DNA of 40,066 nucleotides from a virus. A program made the translations under genes and the position numbers. The notes beneath the pieces are model-generated. The model saw nothing but the letters and a program-made list of their open reading frames with translations, searched no databases and was not told the origin of the DNA. Below, piece by piece: positions 2,327 through 26,139 of this stretch. Position 1 is the first letter of the stretch, and every line of letters begins with the position of its first letter. Location of the stretch: positions 1 through 40,066 of the IMG/VR virus record IMGVR_UViG_3300042691_026507. One strand, given 5' to 3'.

Positions 2327-4159
2327 TCAGCTCCATCCGTCCGTGCCGCCCCAATTCGACGTGCCCCAACGGAACGAGCCGGCCGTGTACGCCGGAGCCC
2401 CGCTGAACGTAACCTCCCAGCGGCCTGCGGGAAGTACGACGTCGTGCTCGATCGCCGTGATCTGCACCGTCTTCGTGATCGCCGACCCGGTCGCCGGCGT
2501 GCGCTTGATCGTGACGATGTCGCCGAGCTCGCGGCCGAGCACCGTCGCCCACGCCAACGTGCTCGAGCCGATCAGCGTGCGCTCCGGCGCGACCGTCCAC
2601 GAACGCCCACGGGTCGACGGTGTCGCGTAGCGGGTCGTCAACAGGTCGGCGACGTCACGGCACGCGTTCGACGACGGCAACGCCGTCTGCACCGAGTACG
2701 ACCGTTTGGAGTACGTGGTCTGCGAGGTGCCGTTGCGCGACGTGTGGCTGGCGTCGTCCACGCCGGTGACGGTGACGAGGTTGTAGATCAGCCGCTCGTC
2801 GAGCTCAAGCCCGAAGCCGCTGTAGCGCACAGCGTTCGCAGTGCTGTCGTCGGCGAACGTCGCAGCCGACGCTGCGCCCATGTCGTCCGTCTTCGCCTCG
2901 AACGTCAGCACGCCGGAGCGTGACACGAACAGGCGCCCCTGATCGGACCGGGCGGCGAGGATCATTGCCGACAGCGCGTCGGACGCATCCACGTACGCGC
3001 CCACCGAACTGCTCGACGTCTGCGACGACACGAGCCCGGCAGGGACGCCGAGCAGGTCGGTGAACCGGGAGATGCGCGACCCGACAGACTCTGCCGCCCA
3101 CCCCGTGCGTGCAGCGGCCAGGACGCCGATCTGCGTAGCCGTGAGCGCGGTCCCGTAGAACACCGCGAACTCGTCCATGACGAGCCAGCCCGGCGTGTCC
3201 TTGTACCCGATCGTCACGTACCGCGGGTCCATGGTGAGCATCGGGTTGACCGAGGTCGCAGTCCCGTCACTCACGCCGTCTACGTAGATCGTGATCGTGT
3301 TGCCGTTGCGCACACAGGCGATGTGGTGGACGTTGCCGTCGGCCACCGGCACCGTGCCGGTCGCCGTGGCCGTCTCGTTCGCGCCTGCGCCGCCGCCCTG
3401 ATAGAAGCGGATCCGTCCACCGTCGATGTCGATGTCGGCACGTTGGTTACCGGCCAGCACGTTCGTCTGAAAGAACTCGACGAGCTGGCAGTCGGAATTG
3501 GCCTGCACGTAGAAGCTGACCGTGTACACGCCCGACGTTCCGAAGCTCAGGTTGCGGGCAGCGATCGTGACCGCCTCGTTGGCCCCGACGTCGATGCGCG
3601 ACGCACCGTCGCCGCCCGGGTTCAGCGCAGCAGCGGCCCTTCTCCCCTGCCCGTACCGCGCGTTGTAGCTGCCGGCGTTGTCCTTCGCCGTCGTGTCATC
3701 GCCGAGCGACCACCACAACGTCGGCGCGAGCGGCTCGATCGCCGCTGCGTGCGCGTCCTGCGGCAGCTCCCACGTCGCGAGCAACGAGAACAGGTCGGCG
3801 CACTGCAGCGTCGTCGTCGCGTCCCGGCCGAGCGCCGGATAGCCCTGCACCCACGACGTCGTCACACCACGAAAGATGGGGTAGGTGACGCCGCTGTAGA
3901 CGCCTTCGACCTTGACCTGCCGGCGCGGCAAGATGTTGCCGAAGTACGGGCCCGCCGAGTAATCGGGATCGAACCGGCGGGTGCGGTTGTCGAGCACGAT
4001 CGTCGCCGTGCCCGCCTGGAAGTCGTCGAGCTCGTTGCTGCGGCCCCTCGAGGTGCGCACCGAGCGGACGTAGGCGGTGACCTCGGTCCACGTCGGCGAC
4101 GCGACGAGGGGGCCGTCGGAGAACGCTACGTACACGCGACACTGCGCGGACAGTGCCAT
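2327..4159 (-). CDS. minor tail protein with LamG/concanavalin-type insert
   Basis: 610 residues, first gene after the tape measure (TGATG overlap), the position of the distal tail/baseplate hub protein in siphoviruses. The N-terminal 110 residues (TSRGRSNELDDFQAGTATIV, RFDPDYSAGPYFGNILPRRQ) match the start typical of these proteins in actinophages. Residues about 145-350 look like a LamG or concanavalin A-like jelly roll (LWWSLGDDTTAKDN, VYTVSFYVQ, HHIACVRNGNTITIYVDGV), which often binds carbohydrate. The C-terminal part resembles the hub domain. It probably contacts the host surface. Confidence 0.82.
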   Translation of the reverse strand: MALSAQCRVYVAFSDGPLVASPTWTEVTAYVRSVRTSRGRSNELDDFQAGTATIVLDNRTRRFDPDYSAGPYFGNILPRRQVKVEGVYSGVTYPIFRGVTTSWVQGYPALGRDATTTLQCADLFSLLATWELPQDAHAAAIEPLAPTLWWSLGDDTTAKDNAGSYNARYGQGRRAAAALNPGGDGASRIDVGANEAVTIAARNLSFGTSGVYTVSFYVQANSDCQLVEFFQTNVLAGNQRADIDIDGGRIRFYQGGGAGANETATATGTVPVADGNVHHIACVRNGNTITIYVDGVSDGTATSVNPMLTMDPRYVTIGYKDTPGWLVMDEFAVFYGTALTATQIGVLAAARTGWAAESVGSRISRFTDLLGVPAGLVSSQTSSSSVGAYVDASDALSAMILAARSDQGRLFVSRSGVLTFEAKTDDMGAASAATFADDSTANAVRYSGFGLELDERLIYNLVTVTGVDDASHTSRNGTSQTTYSKRSYSVQTALPSSNACRDVADLLTTRYATPSTRGRSWTVAPERTLIGSSTLAWATVLGRELGDIVTIKRTPATGSAITKTVQITAIEHDVVLPAGRWEVTFSGAPAYTAGSFRWGTSNWGGTDGWS

Positions 4160-6414
4160 CAGCGCACCTTGATCGGGATCGGGCCGTTGGAGTTCTGGTA
4201 GGCGAGCAGTCCGGTGACGACCACCTCACCGAACGACCGACCGTCGATCTGCATGACGACCTTCGTGTCCGGCACCGACGTGAATGCGTTCATCGGGTCC
4301 GACGAGAACCCGCCCGGCGCCGTCGGAAGGTTCTGAAGGTTCTTGACGAGGCCGTACGCCTCGCTCGCCTTAGAGATCCACGTGTCGAGATCGGAAGTCA
4401 TCCCGGCACGGTCGGCGACGTCTTTCAACGACTTGTAGATCTCGGCGATCGCGTCGTTGAACTCGCTGACTGGGCGCTTGTTCTTGATGAGGTACTGCAC
4501 CCAGCCGTCTGCTGCGGAGACGCCGGCGATGAGCTGGTCGTTGACGGACTTCTGCGAACCGGCGACGCGACTGGTCGCGTCGTTCAGCGAGTCTTGCGCT
4601 TCGACGAGGTCGCGTTGCGCCGACTCGACCTTGCGCGACGCTTCCTCAACCGCCTTGTTGGCTTCGGCGAGCTCTTTGGAGCCTTCCTTGCCGCGGTTGG
4701 TGACGTCGACCAGTTCTTGGCGCGTATCGCGCAGGTTGATCTCGGCCTGGAGGACACCGTCTTGCGCTGCGGCGACTCGTTCTTGCGCGAGGCCGTATTC
4801 GTCTGACGTGGTCGGGTCGAGCGACTGGTTGTACGCCTTCTGCGTGCGGATCAGGTCGGCGTTGGCCTTCAGGAGCTTGACCTTGTCGCCTTCGCGTTCG
4901 GCGGCGACCACGTCACGCTGCGCTTGGATGTACGCCGCCTCGGCATCCATCACGCCGGCCTTGTCGACCTCGCGCAATGCGTTGAGGTCGGACAGCGCCT
5001 GCGCGAGGTCGCGCTTTGACTGCGTCAACGCCCGTGTGGCGTTCCGCTCGTTGATCTGCGCTTCCGCGACCTCGTCTGCTGTCGGACCGAGCGACGTCAG
5101 GAACAGCGCGACCTGCGCTTCTTGCAGCTCGGCCTGCGCGTCGGCGACGCTGCGCTGCGCGTCTTCGATCCGCCGGTACGCCCGCTCGACCTTGCTGGCC
5201 GTGTCGGACGCAGTGCCGCCGGTCTGCGCGATCGAGTTGCGGAAACTGTTCTGCACGGTGAACGCGCCGAATACCTCGTCGCGCAACCCCGCCGCAGTGT
5301 TTACGGCGTCGGTGTTCAGCTTGGTGATCTGCTCGGCCGTGTACGACACCGCAGCGTTCAAGTTGGCGAGGTAGCTGTTCAGTCCCTGCGCGAGCGCGTC
5401 GGGCAGCGTGTACGTCCAGATCTCAAGCTTCTTGAGGTTCTTTTCGGTCGCGACGAACGGCTGCTCGAACTCGGGTCCGGTGATAGCCCACTTGAGGCCC
5501 TTCGCGGTTGCGTTCGACAGCTTGATCCACGCTGCGGTCAGCTCGGCGATGTTGCTGGCCGTCTCCGCGATGACGGGCAGCGCTTCACGCATCGACTTCG
5601 TGATCTCGCTGAGCGCCGGGAGGAGCCGGGCGCCGATCTCCGCTTGGATGTTCGCCCACTCGGCGCGCAGACGCTGCTGCTGGCCGAGGAGCGTGTCGGA
5701 CCGTTCGGCGAACGATCCTTGGAACTTGGCGGCCTGCTCGGTCGCGAGCGACAACGCGGCGATCGCTGTGCTGTTGTTCTTCGCTGCGACAGTCGACATG
5801 TCCAGGCCCATCGCTTGCGCGCGAGCCTGGATGTCGATCTCTTTGATCTTGATACCGAACTTCTCGATGGTGTCGAACTCGCCGCGCAGCAACGCCGTGA
5901 GGCCTTGCATGGCTTCCTCGGTCGACCGGCCGAACGCGGCGCCGAGATCCGACGCGATCGTGACGAGCTTCTGCGACGTTTCTGCCGCTACGGCCTGCGT
6001 GTAGCCGAGGTTCTGAAGCAGCGACCCGACGGCGGCGACGTTCTGGAACACTGCGGCCTTGGACAGACCGAGGTTGGTCGCAGCGGTGCTCGCGAACTGT
6101 TCGACCGAACGGGAGCTCGACTGGAACACCGCTTCAACGGACGCCTGCGCCTGCTCGAGCTGCGACGCCTGGTCGACCGCTGCGCGAGCCTGGTTGATCA
6201 CGAACCCTGCGGTGGCCTTCAACGCTGACACGGCGCCGCCGACCGCTTCGACGCCGACGCCGACGCCGGCGCCGACCATCGCTGCGGACTTGAGCTTGTC
6301 GAGCTTCGACATCGTTTCCGATGCCGTCAGCCCGAGCCGCTTCATGTCGGCTTGCGCGCCTGCGCTGTTGGAATCGATGAGGATCCGCAGGACTTGGGTC
6401 AGCGCACCGGCCAC
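4159..6414 (-). CDS. tape measure protein
   Basis: 751 residues, the longest gene in the window, GTG start 4 bases after the gpGT stop. The N-terminus (LTQVLRILIDSNSAGAQADM) and the segment around 75-270 (ASQLEQAQASVEAVFQ, LGYTQAVAAETSQKLV, EEAMQGLTALLRGEFD) are typical of tape-measure proteins. A hydrophobic glycine/valine patch lies near residues 44-65. Long charged helices follow from about residue 400 to 600. At about 1.5 angstrom per residue it would set a tail of roughly 110 nm. This length is an inference from the usual relation. Confidence 0.93.
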   Translation of the reverse strand: MAGALTQVLRILIDSNSAGAQADMKRLGLTASETMSKLDKLKSAAMVGAGVGVGVEAVGGAVSALKATAGFVINQARAAVDQASQLEQAQASVEAVFQSSSRSVEQFASTAATNLGLSKAAVFQNVAAVGSLLQNLGYTQAVAAETSQKLVTIASDLGAAFGRSTEEAMQGLTALLRGEFDTIEKFGIKIKEIDIQARAQAMGLDMSTVAAKNNSTAIAALSLATEQAAKFQGSFAERSDTLLGQQQRLRAEWANIQAEIGARLLPALSEITKSMREALPVIAETASNIAELTAAWIKLSNATAKGLKWAITGPEFEQPFVATEKNLKKLEIWTYTLPDALAQGLNSYLANLNAAVSYTAEQITKLNTDAVNTAAGLRDEVFGAFTVQNSFRNSIAQTGGTASDTASKVERAYRRIEDAQRSVADAQAELQEAQVALFLTSLGPTADEVAEAQINERNATRALTQSKRDLAQALSDLNALREVDKAGVMDAEAAYIQAQRDVVAAEREGDKVKLLKANADLIRTQKAYNQSLDPTTSDEYGLAQERVAAAQDGVLQAEINLRDTRQELVDVTNRGKEGSKELAEANKAVEEASRKVESAQRDLVEAQDSLNDATSRVAGSQKSVNDQLIAGVSAADGWVQYLIKNKRPVSEFNDAIAEIYKSLKDVADRAGMTSDLDTWISKASEAYGLVKNLQNLPTAPGGFSSDPMNAFTSVPDTKVVMQIDGRSFGEVVVTGLLAYQNSNGPIPIKVR

Positions 6415-6856: not shown

Positions 6857-7255
6857 TCAGCCGACCCGGTTGATCGCAGACGCGGCGGCCCACGAACCGG
6901 AGATGGACACGGGCCCGGAGAGGTTCTCTTCGATGGTGAAGTCGAAGAACGCCTGGCCGAACCAGTAGCGCGACGTCGACGCCGTGTCGGGATACCAGTA
7001 GAAGGACCTTGCGACGCCGTCGACCGCTGCGGTGTACAGCTGCCGGCTGGCGTCGTCCCAGAAGCCCGAGAACGAGCCCTGGGCGTCGCTGAACCCGCTC
7101 ACGTAGACCTTGTTGGTATCACCGAAGGCCGTCGCTTCTTGACGGTCCTGGGTCGCCTGAAGACTGAACGAGTTGATGAACGCGATCGGCTCTGCGGAGC
7201 CGCCGCTGTTGATCGCCGCGTAGAGGCGACCGTTCTTTCCACTGATGCGTGCCAC
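6857..7255 (-). CDS. major tail tube protein
   Basis: 132 residues, GTG start with GGAGG 8 bases upstream and a 63-base gap before it, suggesting strong independent translation as expected for an abundant virion protein. The sequence (MARISGKNGRLYAAINSGG, FINSFSLQATQDRQEATAFG, FDFTIEENLSGPVSISGSW) fits small tail-tube proteins of the lambda gpV-like fold. Position directly before gpG supports this. The adjacent upstream glycosyltransferase could modify it. Confidence 0.85.
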   Translation of the reverse strand: MARISGKNGRLYAAINSGGSAEPIAFINSFSLQATQDRQEATAFGDTNKVYVSGFSDAQGSFSGFWDDASRQLYTAAVDGVARSFYWYPDTASTSRYWFGQAFFDFTIEENLSGPVSISGSWAAASAINRVG

Positions 7256-7318: not shown

Positions 7319-8320
7319 CTACGCGCCGATGTGGCGCAGGAACTGTGCGACGGTCCCGGCGAACGAACGGTCCGCGACTGCTTCGCGTGCACGTGCCGCA
7401 GCGGTCCGTCGGGCGTTCGGATTGTCTTGCGCCCACCGGATCACGTCAGCGAGCTCGCCCGGTTCGGTCACCTGCGGCAAGAACGGGAACAGGCCGTCGC
7501 CCTCGCCTCGAGGTTCCCGGGCGAAGAACGTGCCGGTCGCCGCGAGCTCGCATTCCCGGGGGCCCATCGCCCAGCCTTCGACCAGCGTCGGCGACATCGC
7601 TTCTTTGCGGTAGAGGTTGAACGAACAGGCCGACGCCCGGTACAGAGCGGCGGTGTCTGCGTTGTCGATGCACACGCCACGGTCGTGCGCGAGGAACGCT
7701 ACGAGCGGGCTGTCGTCGGCGACCTGCTGCCAGTTCCCGGCGAGGACGCTGCCGGCGGGCAGCTCGGCCTTCTCGAGGAACTCGATCCGCGACGCGTAGC
7801 CGGTGCCGACAAACGAAAACGGGTGTTCGTCGGTGCGGCCGTCGGCGTGGTGCAAGGCGGGGTCGTAGCCGTGCGGCACGTAGTAGGTGCGCGGGTTGTG
7901 CTGCCGGTACTCGTCGATGTTGATCGGGTCGTTGAGGATGACGGTGTCGGCGTAGCGGGCCTGGCGGATCTGCCGCTCGTCTTCGTACGGCGACTCGGTG
8001 CACCACAGGACGACGTGCACGCCGCGGTTGCGGAGCGACACGAACACCTCGGGCGGCACGAAGAACGAGCTGACCACGATGACGATGTCCGGGCCCCAGT
8101 CCCACGCAGCGGCCCGGATCGATTGGCAGGCGAGACGGCACGCTTCCTCATAGGCGAACGCGCGTACCCCGTTGATCTCGGCCTGCGTGTAGAACGACAG
8201 GCGGTCGCCGAGGTTGAACGATTGTGCGGTCACGCCGTTCGCGGCGAGGCCGACGAGCAGGCCACGGTGCACGTCTGCGACGGAGAAGTTCGGTCCCGGT
8301 TCGATCAACAGGGTTCTCAC
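7319..8320 (-). CDS. glycosyltransferase, GT-B fold (CgeB-like)
   Basis: 333 residues, GTG start overlapping the preceding stop by 4 bases. Two Rossmann-like halves are suggested: DIVIVVSSFFVPPEVFVSL, HVVLWCTESPYEDERQ and DTVILNDPINIDEY in the first, YYVPHGYDPALHH then FVGTGYASRIEFLEKAEL in the second. The ECELAATGTFFAREPRGEG segment near residue 285 matches the nucleotide-sugar-binding region of GT4/CgeB-like enzymes. It lies immediately before the major tail protein, so a virion glycosylation role is likely but not shown. Sugar donor and acceptor cannot be read from sequence. Confidence 0.82.
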   Translation of the reverse strand: MRTLLIEPGPNFSVADVHRGLLVGLAANGVTAQSFNLGDRLSFYTQAEINGVRAFAYEEACRLACQSIRAAAWDWGPDIVIVVSSFFVPPEVFVSLRNRGVHVVLWCTESPYEDERQIRQARYADTVILNDPINIDEYRQHNPRTYYVPHGYDPALHHADGRTDEHPFSFVGTGYASRIEFLEKAELPAGSVLAGNWQQVADDSPLVAFLAHDRGVCIDNADTAALYRASACSFNLYRKEAMSPTLVEGWAMGPRECELAATGTFFAREPRGEGDGLFPFLPQVTEPGELADVIRWAQDNPNARRTAAARAREAVADRSFAGTVAQFLRHIGA

Positions 8321-8964
8321 AAGGCACGCACCAAGGCTTCGCGCAGCAGCCGCATAGACGGGTTCGCGATCTCCCGCTGCGTCTTGTCCAGCGCACGCGC
8401 CCACGACTTCTTGCCTGCACGCTTCGGCGCGTACACCGAGTGCTTGTACCCGTACGGCGTCTTCAAAGCCTTGGCCCTCCCCTTTTGGCCTGCTTCGGTG
8501 TTCCGCCCGGCGCGCGGCGTCGGCTTGCGGATCCCAGGCATGAGCTCGCGGTCTTTGTTCCGGGCGTTGCGGCGTTCTTTCCGCAGGAACGGCCCTTCGA
8601 TCGCGAGTTTCTTCAACCCGGCCGGCGAGATGAGGTGCGGCGCCGCCTTGTTCTCAATGAGCTGCCACGGGCCGCCGGCCCACACCCAGTAGCGGGCGTT
8701 CTGCTGCGTCGCGCCTTTGAACGGCTTGCGGTACACCGACAGTTTCGCCCCCGCCGGCCGGCGGCGGCCGTTGACACCAGCGACGAGCCGCCCGGCGTTC
8801 GTGACCGTCGACTGGGCGTTGGTGTCACGCCGGATCTGCTTCTCGGCGTTCGCTTTCGCGATTCGCGAGTTGTTCGCTGCGATCGATCGGGTGACGTTGT
8901 CGACCTGACGCGGGATCTTGTCGATCGCCCGGACGAGCTGCCGGGGATTCTTGTACGTAGCCAT
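8317..8964 (-). CDS. tail completion/neck protein, HK97 gp10-like
   Basis: 215 residues, very basic. The N-terminal half (KNPRQLVRAIDKIPRQVDNV, SRIAKANAEKQIRRDTNAQ) resembles the helix-rich start of HK97 gp10-like neck proteins that join head to tail. The C-terminal half is unusually rich in Lys and Arg (PAGAKLSVYRKPFKG, PKRAGKKSWARALDK). TGATG overlap with the gene before it. Assignment is by position and general pattern. Confidence 0.65.
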   Translation of the reverse strand: MATYKNPRQLVRAIDKIPRQVDNVTRSIAANNSRIAKANAEKQIRRDTNAQSTVTNAGRLVAGVNGRRRPAGAKLSVYRKPFKGATQQNARYWVWAGGPWQLIENKAAPHLISPAGLKKLAIEGPFLRKERRNARNKDRELMPGIRKPTPRAGRNTEAGQKGRAKALKTPYGYKHSVYAPKRAGKKSWARALDKTQREIANPSMRLLREALVRAL

Positions 8965-9335
8965 CAGCAGGTCGCGGTGATCGCGACCGTGAACCCCAAC
9001 GCGACACCGTCGTTGAACTCGACGTCGGCGCCGATGTTGTCGATGTTCACGACCCCTGCGACACAGTCGGCGTGGTGGAGCGCGTCGATGATCACGTTGT
9101 CGTCGAGGAGCTGCCACATCTGGTCCCACGCGTCGACACGGTCGGCGCGCGACGCGAGCACGGTGACGGTCATCGCGATGTCGTTCTCGCCGCCCCACGC
9201 CGCCGGGGTGATCTGGTCGACCGACAGGACCGCTGCGGGGAACCCTGCGACGTTCGCGTTCCGGTTCCGGGCCACGTACACACCGACGCCCTCGAGGGCG
9301 GCGGTGACGTCGTCGAGGAGCACCTGGAGGTTCAT
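8964..9335 (-). CDS. head-tail joining or tail terminator protein
   Basis: 123 residues (MNLQVLLDDVTAALEGVGVYV, FPAAVLSVDQITPA). It begins with a short helix predicted to address a small alpha/beta fold, as in tail-terminator or neck proteins. ATGA overlap with the connector gene. Its order after the connector and before the gp10-like gene is consistent with a head-tail joining role; no motif proves it. Confidence 0.65.
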   Translation of the reverse strand: MNLQVLLDDVTAALEGVGVYVARNRNANVAGFPAAVLSVDQITPAAWGGENDIAMTVTVLASRADRVDAWDQMWQLLDDNVIIDALHHADCVAGVVNIDNIGADVEFNDGVALGFTVAITATC

Positions 9336-9952
9336 GCGATGCCCAGGACACGGTCGTGGCGGACCCACGGGTCGAGCAGCCCGAGTACCCGTGCCGGGAT
9401 CCGGGCGCCGAGCACGATCCCTTCGCCGGCGACGGCAAGGCCGCCGAACTGGGACTCGGGGTCGCGGAGCAGATCCTGAGCGAGGATCGCTGTTGCCCGC
9501 TTCACGTCGTCGGGCACCGAGCTCCACCCCCACAGGCCGGTCACTTTCACCGAGCCGAGCCGGTCGAGGTCGTACTTCCACGTCGTAAGTGACAGGCCGA
9601 GCAGCTCGGTGTACGGGACGGCTCCGAGACGCGGGTCCCGACCGTACGGGGGGAGCGCTTGGTAGTCGGTGGTGACGGTGATGTGCGTGCCGTCGTCGTT
9701 GGTGTCGACCGCGACCTGGGTGATCGACCGGCAGTCGTCGATCGGCACGATCTTGCCGACCGGGTCGAAGTAGCGGGCCGACCCGATCGCGCCGCTGTCG
9801 TGGAACTGGCGGCCGCATCGCTTTTCCACCCATCGCGACGCGACGGTGATCGCGTCGTCCCACTGGGCGGAGCGTCCCGGGTCCGACGGCGGAGTGACGC
9901 CGACGTAGGCGCCGTACTCGGCGGCGGTGATGAGCCCGTTGGTGATCGTCAT
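9332..9952 (-). CDS. head-tail connector protein (gp6/gp15-like adaptor)
   Basis: 206 residues from the ATG at 9952, which has GAGGG 5 bases upstream; an upstream GTG would add 6 residues. Helical content and ITAAEYGAYVGVTPPSDPGR, DDAITVASRWVEKRCGRQF fit the adaptor family that docks below the portal. LGLSLTTWKYDLDRL, VTGLWGWSSVPDDVKRAT matches the usual middle and end. In most related phages this gene follows the capsid gene directly; here five sugar genes separate them. Confidence 0.82.
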   Translation of the reverse strand: MTITNGLITAAEYGAYVGVTPPSDPGRSAQWDDAITVASRWVEKRCGRQFHDSGAIGSARYFDPVGKIVPIDDCRSITQVAVDTNDDGTHITVTTDYQALPPYGRDPRLGAVPYTELLGLSLTTWKYDLDRLGSVKVTGLWGWSSVPDDVKRATAILAQDLLRDPESQFGGLAVAGEGIVLGARIPARVLGLLDPWVRHDRVLGIA

Positions 9953-9959
9953 GATGCCC

Positions 9960-10490
9960 TCACAGGCCACCCAGGGCCTTCTGCGGGCCTCCGTGGCGCC
10001 GGTAGCGCCACGTCACCCTCGGGACGTACTTGAAGCGTGCTTCGGCGTCGAGGAGCCGCAACCACAGCGCCCAGTCCTGCATCCGTTCGTCGGGCCAGCC
10101 GCCGACCTCGCGAAGCTTCTCGGTGCGCACCAGCGCGGTGGTCGGGATGTAGTTGCCTTGCCGGAGCCGGGCCGGGTCGAACGGGACGTTGACGTCGAAG
10201 CCCATTTCGCAGTCGCACCACGAGTAGACGACGTCAGCGAGTGTTGACGCGCCGACGAGCGTCTCGAGGTGCCACGGGTACAGCAGGTCGTCGTCGTCGA
10301 GCACGGCGACCCATTCGGACGTGACTGCGGCGAGCGCCCGGTTCAGTGTCTGTGCGGTGTCGCGCCGGTCGTAGTCGACGACGACGATGTGCTCGTCCGG
10401 TCGCAGGGTCTGCGCGGCGACCGAGTCGAGCGCCTCGCGCAACAGGCCGAAGCGTTCGGGGATCGCTGCGGTGACGACGGCGACGGTCAC
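9960..10490 (-). CDS. glycosyltransferase family 2 (GT-A)
   Basis: 176 residues, short for the family (usually 230 or more), covering mainly the nucleotide-sugar-binding half. Key features: the N-terminal strand VAVVTAAIPERF, VVVDYDRRD, and the metal-binding acidic cluster LDDDDLLYPW (D65-D68). QDWALWLRLLDAEARF matches the acceptor-side motif. ATGA overlap with the methyltransferase. Last gene of the sugar cassette between capsid and connector genes. Confidence 0.85.
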   Translation of the reverse strand: MTVAVVTAAIPERFGLLREALDSVAAQTLRPDEHIVVVDYDRRDTAQTLNRALAAVTSEWVAVLDDDDLLYPWHLETLVGASTLADVVYSWCDCEMGFDVNVPFDPARLRQGNYIPTTALVRTEKLREVGGWPDERMQDWALWLRLLDAEARFKYVPRVTWRYRRHGGPQKALGGL

Positions 10491-11035
10491 TGCTCGCGCT
10501 CCAGCACGAGGTGCGACCCGTTCCGTTTCACGACCCGGTGCCCCTCGCAGAGCCGGTCGTAGAACGCGTCGTCGATGCGGGTGATGTGGTCCCAGCCGGT
10601 GCCGTCAGGTTCGATCGGATGGAAGCCGACCCAGTTGGTGAACACGACCCGGGTGCCGGCCGGGATCCGGGCCCAGATGTCGTCGAACACGTCGCCGGGG
10701 AGGTGCTCGACGGACTCGACGAACAGCACGGTCCCTGCGTGGCCCGGGTAGCGGTCGACGAGCACGGTGCCCTGGTACAGGGCCTGCGCGCCCGGTGACG
10801 GGTCGACCCCGATCACCGTGTAGCCGAGATCCTCGAGGAACCGCTCGAGGACACCGTCGCCGCAGCCGATCGATGTGATCACCCCCGGGTAGCGGGGCGT
10901 GTCGACGTCGGCGCCGTCGAACCGGAGACCGAGCGTGTAGCACGCCGCCGCGTACTGGTCGGGTCTTAGCAGGCCGACCTGCTTGTACTGGTACTCGGTG
11001 ATGTTCCGCCGGTAGTAGCCCTCGTCGTAGCCCAT
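10487..11035 (-). CDS. SAM-dependent methyltransferase
   Basis: 182 residues. Class I methyltransferase motif I is SIGCGDG at 55-61, with the acidic ribose-binding D78 in VIGVDPS. The region ESVEHLPGDVFDDIW (108-121) corresponds to motif IV. It starts inside the stop of the dehydrogenase gene and ends in a 4-base overlap with a glycosyltransferase, so it probably methylates a sugar or a nucleotide-sugar made by its neighbours. A protein substrate is possible. Confidence 0.82.
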   Translation of the reverse strand: MGYDEGYYRRNITEYQYKQVGLLRPDQYAAACYTLGLRFDGADVDTPRYPGVITSIGCGDGVLERFLEDLGYTVIGVDPSPGAQALYQGTVLVDRYPGHAGTVLFVESVEHLPGDVFDDIWARIPAGTRVVFTNWVGFHPIEPDGTGWDHITRIDDAFYDRLCEGHRVVKRNGSHLVLEREQ

Positions 11036-12210
11036 CAGCGGCCGATCCGATGCACGGTCACGCCCGGTGTGTCGGGGATGTTCCCGAACGGGTCGACGAT
11101 CACCGAGCCTTTCGGCCACTTCCAGGTGCGGTACTTGGCGTGGTCGCAGCCGATGACGTAGACGCCCGGCTCGGCGGGTTCGTAGTCGCAGAACCCGCAC
11201 AGCAGCATGCTGGCGAGCAGCCGCGACGGCGAGCCGTTCGTCAGGTTCGTCTCCGGCTTGTACTCGCGGCCGCACACCCAGGCTTGGAGCCCGGTCTGGC
11301 GGCACCAGCCTTTGACGATGTCGGCGAGCCACTGGCAGTGCGCCTCGCGCGACGCAGTGACCCAGCCGCCGACATCGACCGAGAGATCGAGCCGCTCGGC
11401 GAGGTGCGACAGGGCGATGTTGTCACGCGGGTGGCAGCCTCCGCCATCGCCCATCCCGGCCTTGAAGTACCGGGGTGACCACAGCCGGTCGACAGCATGC
11501 GACAGGGCTGTGTGCACTTCGTCGGCGTCCGCTGCGGTCTTCTCGCAGATCTCGCCGACCCAGTTCGCGAGCACGATCTTGGCGGAGATGACGCCGTTGT
11601 AGGCGACCTTGACCAGCTCGGCCGACGCGACCGACGTGGTCACGACCGGGCGGGCGTGGATCGTCTTGTAGAACCGGCGCATGTGGTCGACGGCGACCGG
11701 GTCGTCGGCTCCGACGATGACGAACTCGGGCTTGAGGAAGTCCTCGGTCACGGTGCCCATGGCGATGAAGAACGGGTTGTAGACCGTGCGAGCGGCGCCT
11801 TGCGGCAGGATGACCCGTTGCATGGTGCCGGGCAGCACGGTCGAGATCACTGCGACGGTCTGCGTGGTGACGTGCCGGCAGACCTCCCGGTACGCGTTCG
11901 CCAGGTACTGGTACTCGAAGTCACGGCGCTCGGCCGGCGCCGGGGTGACGCCCTCGTAGGCCGGGTCATGCGGCGTCTGCACCGCCACGAACACCAGCTC
12001 GGACGACGCGACCACCTCGGCGACCGTGTCGCACCAGCGGACCCGTGTGAGGTCGCACAAGCCAGCTTCTTGATACGGCACCTCGCCCGATGCGATGTAG
12101 CCGGCGACCGTCGGGTTGGCGTCGGTGCCGCACACCGTGTGGCCCTTCGACGCGATCGCCGCAGCGACCGGCAGGCCGAGCTTGCCGAGGCCTACGAACC
12201 CGATCTTCAT
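11035..12210 (-). CDS. nucleotide-sugar dehydrogenase (UDP-glucose/GDP-mannose dehydrogenase family)
   Basis: 391 residues. The NAD-binding motif is VGLGKLG (residues 6-12) with D30 in VCGTDAN. Family residues are present: E162 in LKPEFVIVG, K201 in AELVKVAYN, and the candidate catalytic C259 in GGGCHPRDN (aligned with SCFPKD of UDP-glucose dehydrogenase). It would oxidise a nucleotide sugar to a uronic acid or similar. A phage copy inside the head module, flanked by glycosyltransferases, suggests it supplies an unusual donor for virion or host glycan modification. Confidence 0.88.
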   Translation of the reverse strand: MKIGFVGLGKLGLPVAAAIASKGHTVCGTDANPTVAGYIASGEVPYQEAGLCDLTRVRWCDTVAEVVASSELVFVAVQTPHDPAYEGVTPAPAERRDFEYQYLANAYREVCRHVTTQTVAVISTVLPGTMQRVILPQGAARTVYNPFFIAMGTVTEDFLKPEFVIVGADDPVAVDHMRRFYKTIHARPVVTTSVASAELVKVAYNGVISAKIVLANWVGEICEKTAADADEVHTALSHAVDRLWSPRYFKAGMGDGGGCHPRDNIALSHLAERLDLSVDVGGWVTASREAHCQWLADIVKGWCRQTGLQAWVCGREYKPETNLTNGSPSRLLASMLLCGFCDYEPAEPGVYVIGCDHAKYRTWKWPKGSVIVDPFGNIPDTPGVTVHRIGR

Positions 12211-12866
12211 CCGAACACCTCCGCGATACGCATCGCGTCGTCTCGGATCTCCGCCTGGGTGGCGTCGTTCCAGAACGTGTCCGGGTCGTAGTTGTTCCCG
12301 GCACGGGTGGCGTCGTCGTGGCCGCCGGTCAGGTCCGAGCGATCATGGGTGATGTACACGCCGAGGTTGCGTTGCGCGCCGAGCATCTGGCCGACGAACT
12401 GCCACCACGTGTCGTTTGCGCCGTTGCGGGCCCAGCCGACCAGCTCGACCCACACCCGGGGTACGGCCGGGAACACGTTGAGGCCGGTTCCATGGCTCTG
12501 GTGGTTCGTGTCGGGGTTCAGCACACAGTTGATGGGGTGCCGGCGGAGCTGCACGTCCCACTTCGGTGTGGTCATCAACGCGTCGTCGTTCCACAACCAC
12601 AGCCACTCGCCGCGCGCTCGGGGGATGAGGTCGTTGGCGATGCACTCGTTGAGGCGGGCGTAGCCGAGCGGCGGGCCGACGAGCATGAACACTTGGTAGT
12701 AGTCACGGAACGTCGCCCGGTAGGCGTCGAGCTCGGGGTCGTCGGCGTCGAGGTAGACGAGCACTTCGAAGCAGCGGTCGTCGTAGGCGTGTTCGTACAG
12801 CGTGTCGATCGACGCGCGGAGCGACTCGGGCCGTCCGCGCGATGGGCAGAGGAACGTGCACCACAT
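12207..12866 (-). CDS. glycosyltransferase, GT-A fold
   Basis: 219 residues. CTFLCPSRGRPESLRASID at the N-terminus is a typical GT2-like start. Acidic clusters VYLDADDPEL (D40, D42, D43) and LWLWNDDALMT (D94, D95) are the expected nucleotide- and metal-binding sites. The C-terminal half contains GHDDATRAGNNYDPDTFW. The start overlaps the preceding stop by one base (TGATG) and the stop overlaps the dehydrogenase start. Donor and acceptor unknown. Confidence 0.82.
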   Translation of the reverse strand: MWCTFLCPSRGRPESLRASIDTLYEHAYDDRCFEVLVYLDADDPELDAYRATFRDYYQVFMLVGPPLGYARLNECIANDLIPRARGEWLWLWNDDALMTTPKWDVQLRRHPINCVLNPDTNHQSHGTGLNVFPAVPRVWVELVGWARNGANDTWWQFVGQMLGAQRNLGVYITHDRSDLTGGHDDATRAGNNYDPDTFWNDATQAEIRDDAMRIAEVFG

Positions 12867-13618
12867 CAGATGGTCCACCGTTCGTACGGCATCGTGAACG
12901 AATCCAACACGATGCTCTTGACGTGGCCGACCTGGATGCCGCAGTGCACGAACTGGGGCACCCCGACGTTCGCGCACATCCGGGCGAAGAACAGATCCTC
13001 GCCCTCGGCCAACTGCGGCGGATACACCGGGGCCTGGAACCAGCACCAGTGCTCGCCGATCCCCTGGCTGGTCACCCAATCACGGATCTTCACGAACACC
13101 GACTTGTGGACCAGCATGATGCCGGTACCGACGCCGGCGCACTGCACGAGAGCGTCCTCGCCGAGCGGGAGGTCTTCGTACTCAACGAACCGCCACGGCA
13201 CCGTGTCACCGTCCACCGGTGGGGCGGCGGCGAACACGTTGTGGCCGACCGTCGCCTCGCGCTTCACCGGGTCCGCTGCTTTCAAGCACGGGACGGCGAC
13301 GCCGATCACCGGCCGGTCGACCGGGTCAGCGGACGCGAGGAGCCGCTCGAGGATGTCGGCGTCGAACGTCTGATCGGTGTCGATAAACAGCAACCAGTCA
13401 GAGCCGCCGTACTCGAGGAACGATCGGACGATCTCGTTGCGGGACTTGTGCAGCAACGTGGTGCCGATGTTCCACGACTGCGGCCGCCGGTGGTTGAACC
13501 GGCCTTTCTTGGACGCCCACGCATCCCACAAGAACAGGTCGCCGACACAGCGCGAGAAGTGCGCGGTGACCGTGCTTGCAGCGATGACGCCGAGCGACAC
13601 CTTGTCTTCGGTGCCCAT
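12866..13618 (-). CDS. glycosyltransferase, GT-A fold (GT2-like)
   Basis: 250 residues from the ATG at 13618. A further upstream TTG would start inside the terminator hairpin and is unlikely. DWLLFIDTDQTFDADILERL gives a DxD at D80-D82. GVGTGIMLVHKSVF and EGEDLFFARM (206-) are the acceptor-side acidic motif. It is the first gene after the capsid terminator and begins the five-gene sugar cassette. No strong ribosome-binding site is visible. Confidence 0.83.
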   Translation of the reverse strand: MGTEDKVSLGVIAASTVTAHFSRCVGDLFLWDAWASKKGRFNHRRPQSWNIGTTLLHKSRNEIVRSFLEYGGSDWLLFIDTDQTFDADILERLLASADPVDRPVIGVAVPCLKAADPVKREATVGHNVFAAAPPVDGDTVPWRFVEYEDLPLGEDALVQCAGVGTGIMLVHKSVFVKIRDWVTSQGIGEHWCWFQAPVYPPQLAEGEDLFFARMCANVGVPQFVHCGIQVGHVKSIVLDSFTMPYERWTI

Positions 13619-13655: not shown

Positions 13656-13691
13656 CCTCCCCGCGCCGCCAAGGCAAACGGCGCGGGGAGG
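13656..13691 (-). terminator. hairpin terminator after the capsid gene
   Basis: Perfect 13-bp arms (CCTCCCCGCGCCG and its complement) with a 10-base loop, 14 bases past the capsid stop. There is no T-run, as is common for GC-rich actinobacterial terminators. It could partly end transcripts after the capsid gene so that capsid mRNA exceeds the sugar genes. Confidence 0.7.
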
Positions 13692-13704: not shown

Positions 13705-15057
13705 CTAGAAGGTCGGGGCGACGAGGCCGGTACCGACGAGCACCTGGGTCGAGACGGTGTACCGCTCGGCGGTGAACGCCGAGTAGCCCATGACCGCCAT
13801 GCGGATCGTGGTCGGCGGGGTGATGAACTGCTCGAACTGGAAGCTCATGAGGTCGCCTTCGGCGAACACGGCGTCGGACAGGCGGGTCACGATCACCCGG
13901 TCCTCGTTCGACGACGCGCCTTCGGTGAGGCTCATGTTGCCGTCCACGATGACGGGCACACCGGCGAGGGTGCCGGCGATCGCGTCGACGCTGGTGCCGC
14001 CGGTGCCCATCACGTTGAACCCGGCGCCCGGGTTCGGGACGACGATCGGGCGGCCCGACGTGTCGGACTGGGCGAGCAGCCAGTGCCAGCGGCGAGGCGC
14101 CATGATGATCACCTCGGCGGCCCGGTACCGGTTCGACGCGACGCCGGACAGCAGGCCGACGACCTTGCTGTAGAACGACGCCACGGTCGTGCCGGTGAAC
14201 GACGCGGTGGTCGCGCCGATGTTCAGCAGGCCCTTGTGCTGGCCGTTGGAACCCGACCCTGAGATGAGCTGGGTGTCGAGCTTCTGCGCGTAGTCGGCGA
14301 CGAGCTCGTTCATGATGAGCTGGTCGGTGACGGCGCCACGCTGGAGGGCCTGACGGGAGATGTCCTGCACGCCGATCAGCGAGTTGACACCGAAGCTGAG
14401 GTCGGTGGTGACAATGTCGGTTTCCTGCGGGGCGGTGTTCTGCGACGTCTGCATCGCGGTCGCAGGCGACGTGGTGACGCGAGTCGCGTACATCGTCATG
14501 CCGAACTCGGGCAGCGGGTACTTCGGGTAGGCGTCGGCGAGGACACGGCCGGCGCGAGCGAGGCGGGCGGCCTGGTCGAGCAGGTACAGGGGCGGGACGA
14601 GGCCGTTGAGGGTGCCGGTGGTGATGTCGCGGAGCTCGACCTCGGACTCGCGCATGTGGCGCTCGATGCGGTCGGTGGCGCCGCGGTCGGACCGCTCATG
14701 CCACTTGAACGCGTCGGAGAAGAACGACTGCTCCTTCCGGTCGGGCCGGTAGGTGCGCTCCTCGGTGTGGGTGCCGTTCGCGAACGCGGGCACGGTGTAC
14801 GGGACGGCGGCGGCGGCGGCGGCCTTGCGGGCCTCGGCCTCGGCGACCTCGGCGGCGCGAGTCTTGAGGTCGGCGACGTCCTTGACGAAGCCGTCGCGCT
14901 CGGCCTTCACCGAACGGAACTCGGACGCCTCGTCGGCGGTCAGGTCACGGGCCTCGCCCTCGGCGGCCGCGATGATGTCGTCGAGCTTCGCGTCGCGCTC
15001 AGCGATGGCGGCCTGCGCGTCGGCGATCTTCTTGTTGATGATGTCCAGCAGAGACAT
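13705..15057 (-). CDS. major capsid protein, HK97 fold
   Basis: 450 residues from the ATG at 15,057, preceded by GGAGGA. The first roughly 90 residues are a charged coiled coil (IINKKIADAQAAIAERDAKL, LTADEASEFRSVKAERDGF) that matches the scaffold-like delta domain removed by the protease. The rest fits the HK97 capsid family: TTDLSFGVNSLIGVQDISRQ, IMNELVADYAQKLDTQLIS, PRRWHWLLAQSDTSGRPIV. It follows portal and protease genes. No separate scaffold gene is seen, in keeping with the delta domain doing that job. Confidence 0.93.
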   Translation of the reverse strand: MSLLDIINKKIADAQAAIAERDAKLDDIIAAAEGEARDLTADEASEFRSVKAERDGFVKDVADLKTRAAEVAEAEARKAAAAAAVPYTVPAFANGTHTEERTYRPDRKEQSFFSDAFKWHERSDRGATDRIERHMRESEVELRDITTGTLNGLVPPLYLLDQAARLARAGRVLADAYPKYPLPEFGMTMYATRVTTSPATAMQTSQNTAPQETDIVTTDLSFGVNSLIGVQDISRQALQRGAVTDQLIMNELVADYAQKLDTQLISGSGSNGQHKGLLNIGATTASFTGTTVASFYSKVVGLLSGVASNRYRAAEVIIMAPRRWHWLLAQSDTSGRPIVVPNPGAGFNVMGTGGTSVDAIAGTLAGVPVIVDGNMSLTEGASSNEDRVIVTRLSDAVFAEGDLMSFQFEQFITPPTTIRMAVMGYSAFTAERYTVSTQVLVGTGLVAPTF

Positions 15058-15177: not shown

Positions 15178-15840
15178 TCAGGCGAGACGCAACGCTCGGG
15201 CGACGCCGAGCGGCATACCCGGCGCCTGAGCCGGGGAGATCGGGTCGTCCGAGCGGACGACCTGGACAGCGGTGGCCGGGTTCGCCGGGTACGTCACGAC
15301 GGACACGTCGAACAGGCGTACTTCTTGGATGACCCGTTCGCTGTAGTCCTTGGACCACGACTGGCGGGTCACACGGAACGCGAACGACATCTCGTCGACG
15401 TCGCCGCGTTCGATCGCAGAGCGGAGCTCCTGCGCGGCCGGGTTCCGCAGATCCAGCGACGGCGCCTCCGAGTAGAGGCCGATCGTGTCGGACCGCAGCA
15501 CGAGGGTGCCGGACTTGGTGCGGGCGAGCGGGAACCCGGAGTGGTTGTTCAGCAGCCGGACGTCGTCGCGCTCGGACAGGGCCTTGTCGTAGGCGCCGCG
15601 GGCGACGACTTCGGACCAGCCGCCGTTGTCGGGGCCGCCGGCGATCGCGTACGGCGTGTCGAACGTCGACGCGTACCCGGCGATCCCGAAGGTGTCGCCG
15701 TCGGCGCGGAACTCGATGTCGCGGGCGAACCGCTCCTCCTCAAGCGACGACGTCAACGGCAGATGGACCACGAACCCGGTCTGCGGGGCGATCGTGAGCC
15801 GCTGCCGGACCTCCAGGGGTAGCGCGAGACGGTCGTTCAT
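15178..15840 (-). CDS. prohead protease, HK97 family
   Basis: 220 residues. The Ser/His protease signature is visible: H100 in LLNNHSGFPLART and S152 in DEMSFAFRV, followed by RLFDVSVVTYPANPAT. It would cleave the capsid delta domain during maturation. ATGA overlap with the portal gene. A 120-base untranslated gap with no recognisable element separates it from the capsid gene. Confidence 0.92.
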   Translation of the reverse strand: MNDRLALPLEVRQRLTIAPQTGFVVHLPLTSSLEEERFARDIEFRADGDTFGIAGYASTFDTPYAIAGGPDNGGWSEVVARGAYDKALSERDDVRLLNNHSGFPLARTKSGTLVLRSDTIGLYSEAPSLDLRNPAAQELRSAIERGDVDEMSFAFRVTRQSWSKDYSERVIQEVRLFDVSVVTYPANPATAVQVVRSDDPISPAQAPGMPLGVARALRLA

Positions 15841-17027
15841 ACGGGCTGCTCCTGCAACTGAGGCTGCGGTGATGGCGGCTGCTGTGCCTGCTGCTGACCC
15901 TTCGGTGGGAACAGCACGTCGCCCCCCGGCAAGCTCTGGCGGTTGAGAACGTTGCGGGCCTCGTTCTGCGTCAACAGGCCGCCGGCGACCTGCGCGATCA
16001 ACGTCTCAACCTTCGTACGCACGTCGGTGCGCTTGATGTACTCCTCGTCGAACTTCACGTACACCGGACGGGGAGCGATTGTCTTCGACAACTTGTACTC
16101 GAGCTTCGACATCCAGAACTGCACGCCGAACGTGAGCAGGTCGATGACCCGCCCCTCAGTGTTCGAATACGTCATGCTGTCGCCCGTGGATCCGCCGACG
16201 AGCTCGGGCGGGATCCCGACGAAGTGCGCGATGTCAGTCGAGTTGTGCCGCAACGCGTCAAGCAACGCCGAAGTCACCGGGTCGGCCTGCAACGTGTCGA
16301 ACTCGGTCTTCGGCGGCAGGATCAACGGCTCGCGGTTGCCGCGCACGATCGACAAGATCTTGTCTTTCAATGCTTGCGCGCCCACCGGCCCCGGGTCGAT
16401 CTCGGGGCGGATGATCGACGTCGGATGCGCTCCGTCGCCGTACCACTGCGCCTCATACTTCCGGGCAGCGATCGCGATGCCGGCCGTCTGCGCCATCTTC
16501 TCGATCAGGCCGACACCGAACGGCGTCCCGAGCTTCGGGCGGCCCGGCAGATGCCAGATGTCGTAGTCCGGCACCGGCTTGCGGTCGACGAACCAGTCGT
16601 AGGTACCGGTCGAACGGTTCAGCTTGACCGACACGATCTTCGGGTCGACGATCTCAATCTGCGTCGGCGTCAACCGGTTGTCGCGCGACACGATCACACC
16701 GACCGCGTCGCCGTGCATGATCATCGACTCGACGATCTGGAACACCCAGTCGGGGAACGACACGTTCGCCGACGGTTCGCGCAACAGGCGCGGCAACGTC
16801 GGCAACTCGGACCGCTCGTCGTCAAGGTCGCGGTACGCGTTCACCGGCATGACAGACACGACACCGGCGGTCAGCAGCAACGCCTTCCACACCGCCGGGA
16901 TTGAGATCATCTCCTCGTAGTTCGCGCTCACGCCGGCGTACGACGGCGCGAGACGACGCTCCGTCAGGCCACGGATCGTCGCTTCCCACTGGTCAGCGCG
17001 ACGCTCCACACGCGACAACCCGAACAT
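15837..17027 (-). CDS. portal protein, HK97 family
   Basis: 396 residues. Family hallmarks: VWKALLLTAGVVSVMPVNAY near the start, DWVFQIVESMIMHGDAVGVI, DIWHLPGRP then GVGLIEKMAQTAGIAIAARK, and DIAHFVGIPPELVG. The C-terminus is proline/glutamine rich (QQQAQQPPSPQPQLQEQ) and probably disordered. It forms the ring through which DNA enters the head. The start overlaps the preceding stop by one base. Confidence 0.94.
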   Translation of the reverse strand: MFGLSRVERRADQWEATIRGLTERRLAPSYAGVSANYEEMISIPAVWKALLLTAGVVSVMPVNAYRDLDDERSELPTLPRLLREPSANVSFPDWVFQIVESMIMHGDAVGVIVSRDNRLTPTQIEIVDPKIVSVKLNRSTGTYDWFVDRKPVPDYDIWHLPGRPKLGTPFGVGLIEKMAQTAGIAIAARKYEAQWYGDGAHPTSIIRPEIDPGPVGAQALKDKILSIVRGNREPLILPPKTEFDTLQADPVTSALLDALRHNSTDIAHFVGIPPELVGGSTGDSMTYSNTEGRVIDLLTFGVQFWMSKLEYKLSKTIAPRPVYVKFDEEYIKRTDVRTKVETLIAQVAGGLLTQNEARNVLNRQSLPGGDVLFPPKGQQQAQQPPSPQPQLQEQPV

Positions 17028-17177: not shown

Positions 17178-18554
17178 TCAGTAGACGAAGAACGGTTGAG
17201 GTTCGGCGACCACGGTCGAAGCGAACGCGAACTTGGCGAGCGTGACGGCGACCAGCGGCGAGATGTCGACGTCGGACCGCTTGCGGTCCCACGCCCACGC
17301 ATCGCCGAGCTGGCGACGCTTCGCACCGAGCACCGCCGCGTTCAACACGCCGTCATCGAGGTGCGCGAGCGTCCGCTGCGTCACCGCGTCGTGCAGCGCA
17401 CCGCACGCCGACGCATGCTCACGCGCCGACACCAACGTGACCGCCACCCCGGCACGCTCGAGGTCCGCCAGGAGACTCCCAGCGGGCCCCGCAGGGTCCA
17501 GAGCTACCGCCACAGGGTCCCACCGTTGGTGGAGCTCCACGAGCCGCTCAACGGCCCGTGCAGTGCCTTTCATGTGGTCGACCAGTTCGACGTGGTCCGA
17601 ACCGTCGGCACGGCGGCCGGCGGCGGCGATCGACGCCCACATCCGGTCCGGTGTCACGTCCACTGCGATCGCGACCCGGCCCTCCGGGCTGCTGTTCAAG
17701 GTCGCGCACTCCGCCCAGCCGGGCAGAGCGACCTCGACGAGCTCGTCGACCTCCGGCGAGATCGACAGGCGCTCACGGGCGAACATCTCGTCGGACATCG
17801 ACGCCCGTTCCGCCATCACCGCAGCCTCAGTGATCCGGGTGCCGAGCGCAGGGTTCGCGTCCGCCCACGCCGCACGGTCATCAAGATCCGAACCCGGCGA
17901 CGCCGAGAACTCCCAGTACGCGAAGTTCGGGTCCAGCGGCGCCTCGCCGCGCTTCACGGCCTCAGCGATGCGCCGGCCCTTCGACCGGAGCCGCTGCGAC
18001 ACCGGAGACGTCAGAGACGGCGCAGAACCCGTGTAGATGGTCTGCGAACCCGGTCGGGCCGAGATTGTCGGCACCAGCGCACCCAAAGCTTCGTCGTTGA
18101 GATCCTGCGACTCGTCGAGGATCAACTTGTCGCCCGTCAGACCACGACCAGAGGTGCGGGACCGGGCGATGAACCGGATCTTGCCGCCGCCCTTGAAGTG
18201 CAGCTCGTAGCCCGACATCGGCGACGCGTACTTCTTGGTCAGCCGGGCCTTCACGCCCTTGTGCGACTCCACCAGGCTGACAAGCCGGTTGAACGCCTCA
18301 CGGGCGGTCGGGAACAGGTGCGCCGTGTGGATCAGCCAGGCGCCGGCGAGGACGAGGTCGTGAAGCTCGACGGCCTCGAGGAACCCGTTCTTGCCGTTCT
18401 GCCTAGAACAGATCACGAACGCGGTCGACGCTGCCAGCGACGCATCGGCCCGCTCCGCCAACGCCACGTTCACGATGTCCTGCTGCCACGGATCCAGCAG
18501 CAGACCGCACTCGGCTGCCAGCTGGATCGCCTCAGGGCCCGCCGTTGACGACAT
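17178..18554 (-). CDS. terL: terminase large subunit
   Basis: 458 residues from the ATG at 18,554, which overlaps the small-subunit gene by 23 bases; an in-frame GTG at 18,590 is an alternative start. ATPase motifs: Walker A-like SRQNGKN (50-56), Walker B KLILDESQ (143-150) and motif III QTIYTGSAP (171-179). The C-terminal nuclease begins near GRVAIAVDVTPDRMW, with the first acidic residue expected in VDVT. It packages DNA into proheads using ATP and cuts the concatemer. Confidence 0.94.
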   Translation of the reverse strand: MSSTAGPEAIQLAAECGLLLDPWQQDIVNVALAERADASLAASTAFVICSRQNGKNGFLEAVELHDLVLAGAWLIHTAHLFPTAREAFNRLVSLVESHKGVKARLTKKYASPMSGYELHFKGGGKIRFIARSRTSGRGLTGDKLILDESQDLNDEALGALVPTISARPGSQTIYTGSAPSLTSPVSQRLRSKGRRIAEAVKRGEAPLDPNFAYWEFSASPGSDLDDRAAWADANPALGTRITEAAVMAERASMSDEMFARERLSISPEVDELVEVALPGWAECATLNSSPEGRVAIAVDVTPDRMWASIAAAGRRADGSDHVELVDHMKGTARAVERLVELHQRWDPVAVALDPAGPAGSLLADLERAGVAVTLVSAREHASACGALHDAVTQRTLAHLDDGVLNAAVLGAKRRQLGDAWAWDRKRSDVDISPLVAVTLAKFAFASTVVAEPQPFFVY

Positions 18555-18813
18555 CCTTGCGGGCTCGACCCTTACGCGCGCTCGTTGCACGCCGAGCAGA
18601 CCGCTTGGCGGCGAGATCGTCGATGCTGTCAACGTCAGTCCCCTCAGCCTTGCGGACCGCCTCGATCTGCTCAAGGATCACGACCAGGCGCGCCGCCAAC
18701 GCAGCGACCTCAGACGGTCGCGGCTGCGTCTCGATCTCGGCCATCAGCCGGTCCCGCAACACCTCCAGGGCAGCCAACCGGCCGCGCCTGCCCGCCTCGA
18801 CAAGCTCACCCAC
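18532..18813 (-). CDS. putative terminase small subunit
   Basis: 93 residues, GTG start at 18,813. Two charged helices (RLAALEVLRDRLMAEIETQ, SEVAALAARLVVILEQIEAV) and a basic tail (AAKRSARRATSARKGRARK) match small helical proteins found before terL in many actinophages. It would recognise the packaging site. First gene of the late operon and directly downstream of a palindrome-rich non-coding region. Confidence 0.7.
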   Translation of the reverse strand: MGELVEAGRRGRLAALEVLRDRLMAEIETQPRPSEVAALAARLVVILEQIEAVRKAEGTDVDSIDDLAAKRSARRATSARKGRARKDVVNGGP

Positions 18814-24982: not shown

Positions 24983-25455
24983 CCGAGCCTCGTGCGGAGC
25001 TCGGCGAACCGGGTGCGGGCGGTGTCGAGGTCGCAGATGTCGGCCTGGTCGACGTGCGTCCGGTGGACGTCCTGCGGACACACGGCGGACGTCCCACCGA
25101 TGTCCCTTTCTTTCTTATCTCTCTTTCTTTCTGCGCGTTCCGCTCGTTTCCGTGCGGCGTCCGCAGCGAGCCCGTCTTTGGTCTGCTGCCACGTGTCGTA
25201 CGACCGGAGCCGCCACCCGTCCCCGTCGACGAGCCACAACTCGTTGTCAACAAGCGTTGACGCCAGCGTGGCGGGGTCTGCGTCGATCCCGAACGCGAGC
25301 AGCCGCAGCGCCGACGCCGGGATGTGGCCGTCGGTCACCCGCCTGCGGGCGTAACAGATCGACCGGATGAACAGCAGCTCAGCCCGGGAGCCCGAAGCCA
25401 TGATCCGCTCGTCCTCCGGGTAGGTGGCGTCGAGCTTGACCCACACGCGGCTCAC
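24979..25455 (-). CDS. DnaD-like/replisome organiser-type protein
   Basis: 158 residues. MSRVWVKLDATYPEDERIM, ELLFIRSICYARRRVTDG, then a segment resembling a winged helix (IDADPATLASTLVDNELWLV, WRLRSYDTWQQTKDGLAAD) match a set of actinophage proteins placed with replication genes. The C-terminus is charged (KRAERAERKRDKKERD). It probably helps load replication proteins at a phage origin. Named function is by resemblance; confidence moderate. Confidence 0.6.
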   Translation of the reverse strand: MSRVWVKLDATYPEDERIMASGSRAELLFIRSICYARRRVTDGHIPASALRLLAFGIDADPATLASTLVDNELWLVDGDGWRLRSYDTWQQTKDGLAADAARKRAERAERKRDKKERDIGGTSAVCPQDVHRTHVDQADICDLDTARTRFAELRTRLG

Positions 25456-26018: not shown

Positions 26019-26139
26019 CACGGTCCTTTCGTTCTCGGCGCCACGCCCGGGCGCAGGCGCGCATCACACCGGCGGTGTACGCGTCCGTTTGTTGGAGGTG
26101 CTCGGCTTCGGCCTCGAGAAGCTCGGGCGACGGGGTCAC
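26011..26139 (-). CDS. small helical protein
   Basis: 42 residues, GTG start overlapping the RusA stop by 4 bases and ending 8 bases into the WhiB gene. TPSPELLEAEAEHLQQTDAY, AGVMRACARAWRRERKDRDG is a single charged helical peptide. Its double overlap supports it. Function unknown. Confidence 0.6.
   Translation of the reverse strand: MTPSPELLEAEAEHLQQTDAYTAGVMRACARAWRRERKDRDG

Follow-up and report, generated by a model that had tools for sequence, protein, structure and literature searches.

A sugar-modification gene cassette in the head-tail module of an uncultured virus and its probable role in virion glycosylation

Genes of the cassette

We analyzed a cassette of sugar-modification genes in the virus record IMGVR_UViG_3300042691_026507, of which all 40,066 bases were taken as the window (G+C content 68%). 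A sequence-only reading of this window had proposed that four glycosyltransferases (GTs), a nucleotide-sugar dehydrogenase and a methyltransferase located among the capsid and tail genes decorate the virus particle. Homology searches with Pfam and PHROGs recovered the glycosyltransferase, dehydrogenase and methyltransferase families, and family matches, intact frames and coordinates bore out all six genes at their proposed places. The cassette and its structural neighbors are, in gene order:

13705-15057, minus strand, HK97-type major capsid protein (PF05065, 5.6e-18; phrog_2263, 2.5e-43), ATG start behind GGAGGA
12866-13618, minus strand, GT2-like glycosyltransferase GT-A1 (phrog_34859, 1.4e-10), possible TTG start at 13672
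12207-12866, minus strand, GT2-like glycosyltransferase GT-A2 (PHROG glycosyltransferase match, 5.2e-10; AlphaFold model)
11035-12210, minus strand, enzyme of the uridine diphosphate (UDP)-glucose/guanosine diphosphate (GDP)-mannose dehydrogenase superfamily, GDGGGCHPRDN subfamily (PF03721, 3.8e-22; PF00984, 4.5e-16; phrog_9148, 3.5e-62)
10487-11035, minus strand, S-adenosylmethionine (SAM)-dependent methyltransferase (PF13489, 1.2e-5, just under the Pfam cut-off), SAM motif I SIGCGDG intact
9960-10490, minus strand, GT2 glycosyltransferase (PF00535, 7.9e-10; phrog_14775, 4.6e-20)
9332-9970, minus strand, head-tail adaptor (phrog_442, 1.8e-16)
7319-8320, minus strand, GT-B glycosyltransferase (PF13524, 1.3e-8)
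6857-7255, minus strand, major tail (tube) protein, candidate target of GT-B (phrog_10528, 4.7e-11)

The overlapping gene order described earlier between capsid and head-tail connector was found at most junctions, i.e., neighboring genes share 1-11 bases (TGATG, ATGA, GTGA), with 11 bases shared by GT2 and adaptor. All reading frames of the cassette are intact and their codon use resembles that of the neighbors, with a G+C content at third codon positions of 0.87-0.93. From the overlaps and the codon use we conclude that the set is very probably translated together with the structural genes. GT-B, as had been pointed out, lies just before the major tail gene. The head-tail module thus holds four glycosyltransferases within structural genes, an arrangement of the Che8, Corndog and Myrna kind, and the gene set is far beyond chance. 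A megablast search of INPHARED (50,697 phage records) with the cassette region gave no matches.

Neither GT-A1 nor GT-A2 of the window directly matched a Pfam family; both matched PHROG glycosyltransferases. In an alignment of 33 GT-A1 sequences, 18 members matched PF00535, and D80/D82 (DxD), E207-D208 and H232 were invariant; the relatives are 24-64% identical to GT-A1. Structure prediction, which had been suggested for the donor sites, worked for one of the two enzymes. GT-A2 was modeled by AlphaFold with confidence as a GT-A fold (predicted local distance difference test, pLDDT, 90.5) that matches GT-A enzymes in the PDB, whereas the GT-A1 model was poor (pLDDT 55.7), with fold matches at most consistent with GT-A. 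PDB profile searches with GT-A1 and with GT-B yielded nothing useful.

Linkage of GT-A1 with the capsid gene and of GT-B with the tail gene

Our scans of IMG/VR found 236 sequences related to GT-A1 and 218 related to GT-B, and we retained 80 for each enzyme; the linkage loci counted here are not independent, as some contigs are present more than once. In 79 loci a capsid gene was followed by a GT-A1 homologue within 400 bases downstream, and in 10 more within 2.5 kb. The rest comprised four loci with no detected capsid gene despite sufficient room, 14 that were cut and one on the opposite strand. All capsid relatives of at least 45% identity have GT-A1 as their next gene; these relatives came from an alignment-based scan, a single-sequence capsid scan having given none. 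INPHARED contributed two weak matches to GT-A1. One contig (L241) has two GT-A1-like genes, one behind the capsid gene and an additional one upstream of the portal.

GT-B showed a corresponding tie to the major tail gene. It was located at most 300 bases upstream of this gene in 86 IMG/VR loci and within 2.5 kb in two more; four loci were without that neighbor (L018, L025, L026, L036) and seven were cut. No GT-B relatives were found in INPHARED or in PHROGs.

We then compared sequence divergence between linked genes. Across 21 non-redundant loci, the median identity was 49% for GT-B and 54% for the tail protein, and the two co-diverged with r 0.75, while the capsids of the same loci shared a median identity of only 19% and correlated with GT-B at r 0.42. 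GT-B and the tail gene are hence inherited jointly across differing heads. This test is less telling for GT-A1, because its co-divergence was r 0.77-0.80 with the capsid yet 0.86 with the adaptor. The two links are separable: the tail-linked module, GT-B with the tail gene, occurs without GT-A1 (L147, L162, L165, L167, L192), and capsid with GT-A1 occurs without GT-B (e.g., L135, L229, L233, L283).

The variable enzymes and their counterparts in known phages

The content between GT-A1 and the adaptor varies greatly among relatives. The dehydrogenase lies within this slot in L001-L003, L004 and L173, and on the short contig L017 it stands beside GT2, adaptor, GT-B and tail gene. Two further loci (L136, L139) have a GT2-like enzyme, a 2-oxoglutarate (2OG)-Fe(II) oxygenase and methyltransferases in the slot, in L139 including an enzyme of the rhamnosyl O-methyltransferase type (PF04989, 2.6e-30). 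In three others the slot is filled by a hydrophobic, apparently polytopic conserved membrane protein. The positions are:

L136:2397-3155 and L139:2529-3305, genes for a 2OG-Fe(II) oxygenase (PF13640, about 1e-15), surrounded by genes for glycosyltransferases and methyltransferases
L134:3698-4666, L135:6332-7294 and L138:5625-6875, membrane protein with no Pfam match

One possible reading of the oxygenase is that a hydroxylated residue or sugar serves as acceptor.

The best PDB match of the GT-A2 model was K4 chondroitin polymerase with UDP-glucuronic acid (UDP-GlcUA; E 6e-9). Among 129 viral and cellular loci, 42 have a gene of the GT-A2 family directly next to that of the dehydrogenase, and in L004 GT-A1 and GT-A2 are one fused protein with the dehydrogenase next to it. 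The methyltransferase has few relatives; the scan of viral contigs gave only those of L297 and of the contig of L011. Both lie within about 1.6 kb of a dehydrogenase gene, such that the two enzymes are close in all three phages in which this methyltransferase was found. GT2 is 31-34% identical to annotated glycosyltransferases of Streptomyces and Arthrobacter phages.

For the dehydrogenase, the sequence-only reading had named a nicotinamide adenine dinucleotide (NAD) site and a candidate catalytic Cys, which correspond to PF03721 and the conserved C259. K201, N205, C259 and D263 are the conserved catalytic Lys, Asn, Cys and Asp, and the NAD-binding and central domains are present. The subfamily is marked by GDGG.CHPRDNIAL, an inserted TPHDP.Y.G....DFDY-like stretch and NPFFIAMG or NPYLIAMG replacing NPEFLAEG. 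In canonical UDP-glucose dehydrogenase, the Glu residues of NPEFxxEG take part in thioester hydrolysis. We re-tested the motif on isolates gathered by whole-protein tblastn: NPYLIAMG or NPYLIAQG was found in Bellamy, AG-345-E15 and HTVC008M, and the canonical NPEFLAEG in SP-15 and LIS04. Conservation of NPFFIAMG in 128 of 128 sequences was rejected as evidence because the search pattern YNPFFIAM had selected for the motif. As the subfamily is without the usual catalytic Glu pair, the product is not certain; UDP-glucuronate would be a reasonable guess. That the dehydrogenase makes a donor sugar and the methyltransferase methylates it is plausible, with the caveat that the active site of this subfamily departs from the one in canonical UDP-glucose dehydrogenase.

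Most recognized genes of the window are on the minus strand and follow the usual siphovirus order. Outside the cassette they include:

17178-18674, minus strand, large terminase (phrog_9)
15837-17027, minus strand, portal (phrog_12)
15178-15840, minus strand, head maturation protease (phrog_80)
4159-6414, tape measure
25452-26021, minus strand, WhiB-like regulator (phrog_472, 2.3e-10)
29200-30393, DNA methyltransferase (phrog_116, 4e-77), beside a phage gene at 28035-28994 (phrog_5931, 7e-53)

We infer an actinobacterial host from the WhiB-like gene, from WhiB in 7 of 20 related virus records and from the capsid, for which 57 mycobacteriophage records were the only relatives among isolates.

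The closest known counterpart is found in the cluster J mycobacteriophages BAKA, Omega and Thibault. Their capsid is homologous to that of the window (34% identity), as are portal and protease, and the same slot between capsid and head-tail connector contains an insertion of 8-10 genes (PMC3706429), among them five coding for glycosyltransferases and one for a SAM methyltransferase. The first gene behind the BAKA capsid gene encodes gp11, which is remotely homologous to GT-A1 (hhalign 96.9%, E 2e-10, 191 columns); gp14 resembles the window GT2. However, cluster J has no full dehydrogenase and no GT-B match; a kinase-like gene and a gene for a zinc protease are present instead. BAKA gp18 (L296:13980-14282) is a stand-alone protein of 100 residues whose homology is with the C-terminal 40 residues of the dehydrogenase subfamily (cf. 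the match to phrog_6896); it may be a remnant or a domain that has split off. The 2013 cluster J paper left undecided whether the glycosyltransferases have viral or host targets (PMC3706429).

Corndog of cluster O likewise has an O-methyltransferase and three glycosyltransferases within the structural operon (PMC4351075). The likeness is one of gene content as described; unlike in the window, the genes lie between portal and protease, and a nucleotide-sugar dehydrogenase is not mentioned. The Corndog glycosyltransferases and O-methyltransferase were detected in infected cells (PMC4351075). The window set is therefore richer than usual, as had been claimed, when compared with phages that have one or two enzymes, but it is not so beside those of clusters J and O, i.e., comparable glycosylation sets are already known from some mycobacteriophages. 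What is new compared with these systems is the presence of the dehydrogenase and of a GT-B linked with the tail gene, and how widely the enzymes are spread in uncultured viruses.

Cyanophage Bellamy and pelagiphage HTVC008M share the dehydrogenase subfamily (about 34% identity), in Bellamy directly between methyltransferase and glycosyltransferase genes. Unlike in the window, no capsid or tail gene is annotated alongside, and NadE-like and carbamoyltransferase genes stand beside the dehydrogenase. The Bellamy methyltransferase was considered as a relative of the window enzyme but is not recognizably related. With their dehydrogenase, NadE-like, carbamoyltransferase and methyltransferase genes, the sets of Bellamy (L301:113-4551) and HTVC008M (L302:1-3646) suggest a pathway to an amidated or carbamoylated sugar.

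Proposed function and its alternatives

We propose that the phage uses the cassette to glycosylate proteins of its own virion, to which we assign a probability of roughly 0.7. Decoration of the particle had been suggested from gene position in this one window; the linkage across many viral loci now lends it broader support. There is also precedent, as capsid and tail-tube modification has been reported for Corndog, Che8 and Myrna, as cited in PMC12363180, PMC12619734 and PMC11600133. Glycosylation would take place in the cytoplasm late in infection. GT-A1, from the same coupled late transcript as the capsid, would most likely add or extend capsid sugars, and GT-B would act in the same way on the tail-tube protein. 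The remaining enzymes (GT-A2, GT2, dehydrogenase and methyltransferase) may form a variable elongation and capping set. Here a nucleotide sugar would be oxidized by the dehydrogenase, likely giving a donor of the uronate type, GT-A2 would transfer the product, and the methyltransferase would methylate the glycan or the donor sugar. Enzyme activities, substrates, step order and attachment sites are what we infer from the genes. The benefit would presumably be shielding, adhesion or stability of the particle.

Several points weigh against virion glycosylation. Adjacency by itself is no proof of a target, for neighboring structural genes are often co-inherited, and the linked loci are partly the same contig twice. 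The window dehydrogenase reads NPFFIAMG, i.e., it is missing the Glu pair of NPEFxxEG that marks a UDP-glucose 6-dehydrogenase. Moreover, a comparison of capsid and tail C-termini with and without the enzymes revealed no extra tail in the enzyme-bearing phages. The known mycobacteriophage glycans described in PMC12619734 are at subunit C-termini; the attachment site in the window phage would hence differ or be unrecognized. Tail proteins from loci without GT-B were too divergent to single out one acceptor residue.

The enzymes could instead modify host surface polymers such as wall polysaccharide or teichoic acid, as a block to superinfection or a late receptor change. The GT-A2 fold resembles TarP, TarS and SpsA, transferases of wall teichoic acid or polysaccharide, relatives of GT-A2 and the dehydrogenase occur in cellular-genome contigs, and such genes have been interpreted in this way for a pelagiphage (PMC7029224). 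However, the genes of two of the enzymes are firmly tied to those of capsid and tail, and late timing would leave little benefit from exclusion. Membrane-anchored or lipid-linked steps were not found in the cassette: none of its proteins has a strongly hydrophobic segment, and the annotated genes include no initiating transferase, flippase or polymerase, which makes an exported polysaccharide an unlikely product. We consider a host target unlikely overall. Slightly less probable still is a mobile island of sugar genes that came to lie in the structural operon by chance; in that case the enzymes linked with capsid and tail would alone act on the virion, and the others would be passengers or in decay. 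The great differences between GT-A1 and adaptor among relatives and the stand-alone dehydrogenase C-terminus BAKA gp18 would fit such an island, but the window frames are all intact, coupled and of normal codon use, and GT-A2 and dehydrogenase recur as a pair.

Hypermodification of phage DNA by glycosylation seems very improbable. Diverse glycosyltransferases acting on phage DNA are known (Pyle 2024, cited in PMC12619734), and the window encodes a DNA methyltransferase (29200-30393). Yet no base-hydroxylating or base-modifying enzyme was recognized among the scanned window genes, the cassette is in the structural module far from replication genes, and its linkage is with capsid and tail genes.

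Virion glycosylation, the reading we prefer, was reportedly regarded by Freeman in 2023 as documented in a few mycobacteriophages and rare elsewhere. Relatives of GT-A1 or GT-B are encoded on hundreds of uncultured viral contigs, and a capsid or tail gene adjoins them in nearly all of the loci examined. The GT-B family linked with the tail gene is absent from the isolates and PHROGs searched. As a tentative model, to which we give somewhat less than even odds, many uncultured, probably actinobacterial phages might pair one virion protein with one dedicated glycosyltransferase: the capsid with a GT-A enzyme and the tail tube with a GT-B enzyme, enzyme and target being inherited together. A swappable set of dehydrogenase, methyltransferases and 2OG oxygenase might then define a glycan coat specific to the phage, one that could contain uronate and be methylated. 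The linkage offers a direct, testable pairing of enzyme and target, and with it a route to asking what role sugar coats have for phages of soil and water, habitats without the action of animal antibodies.

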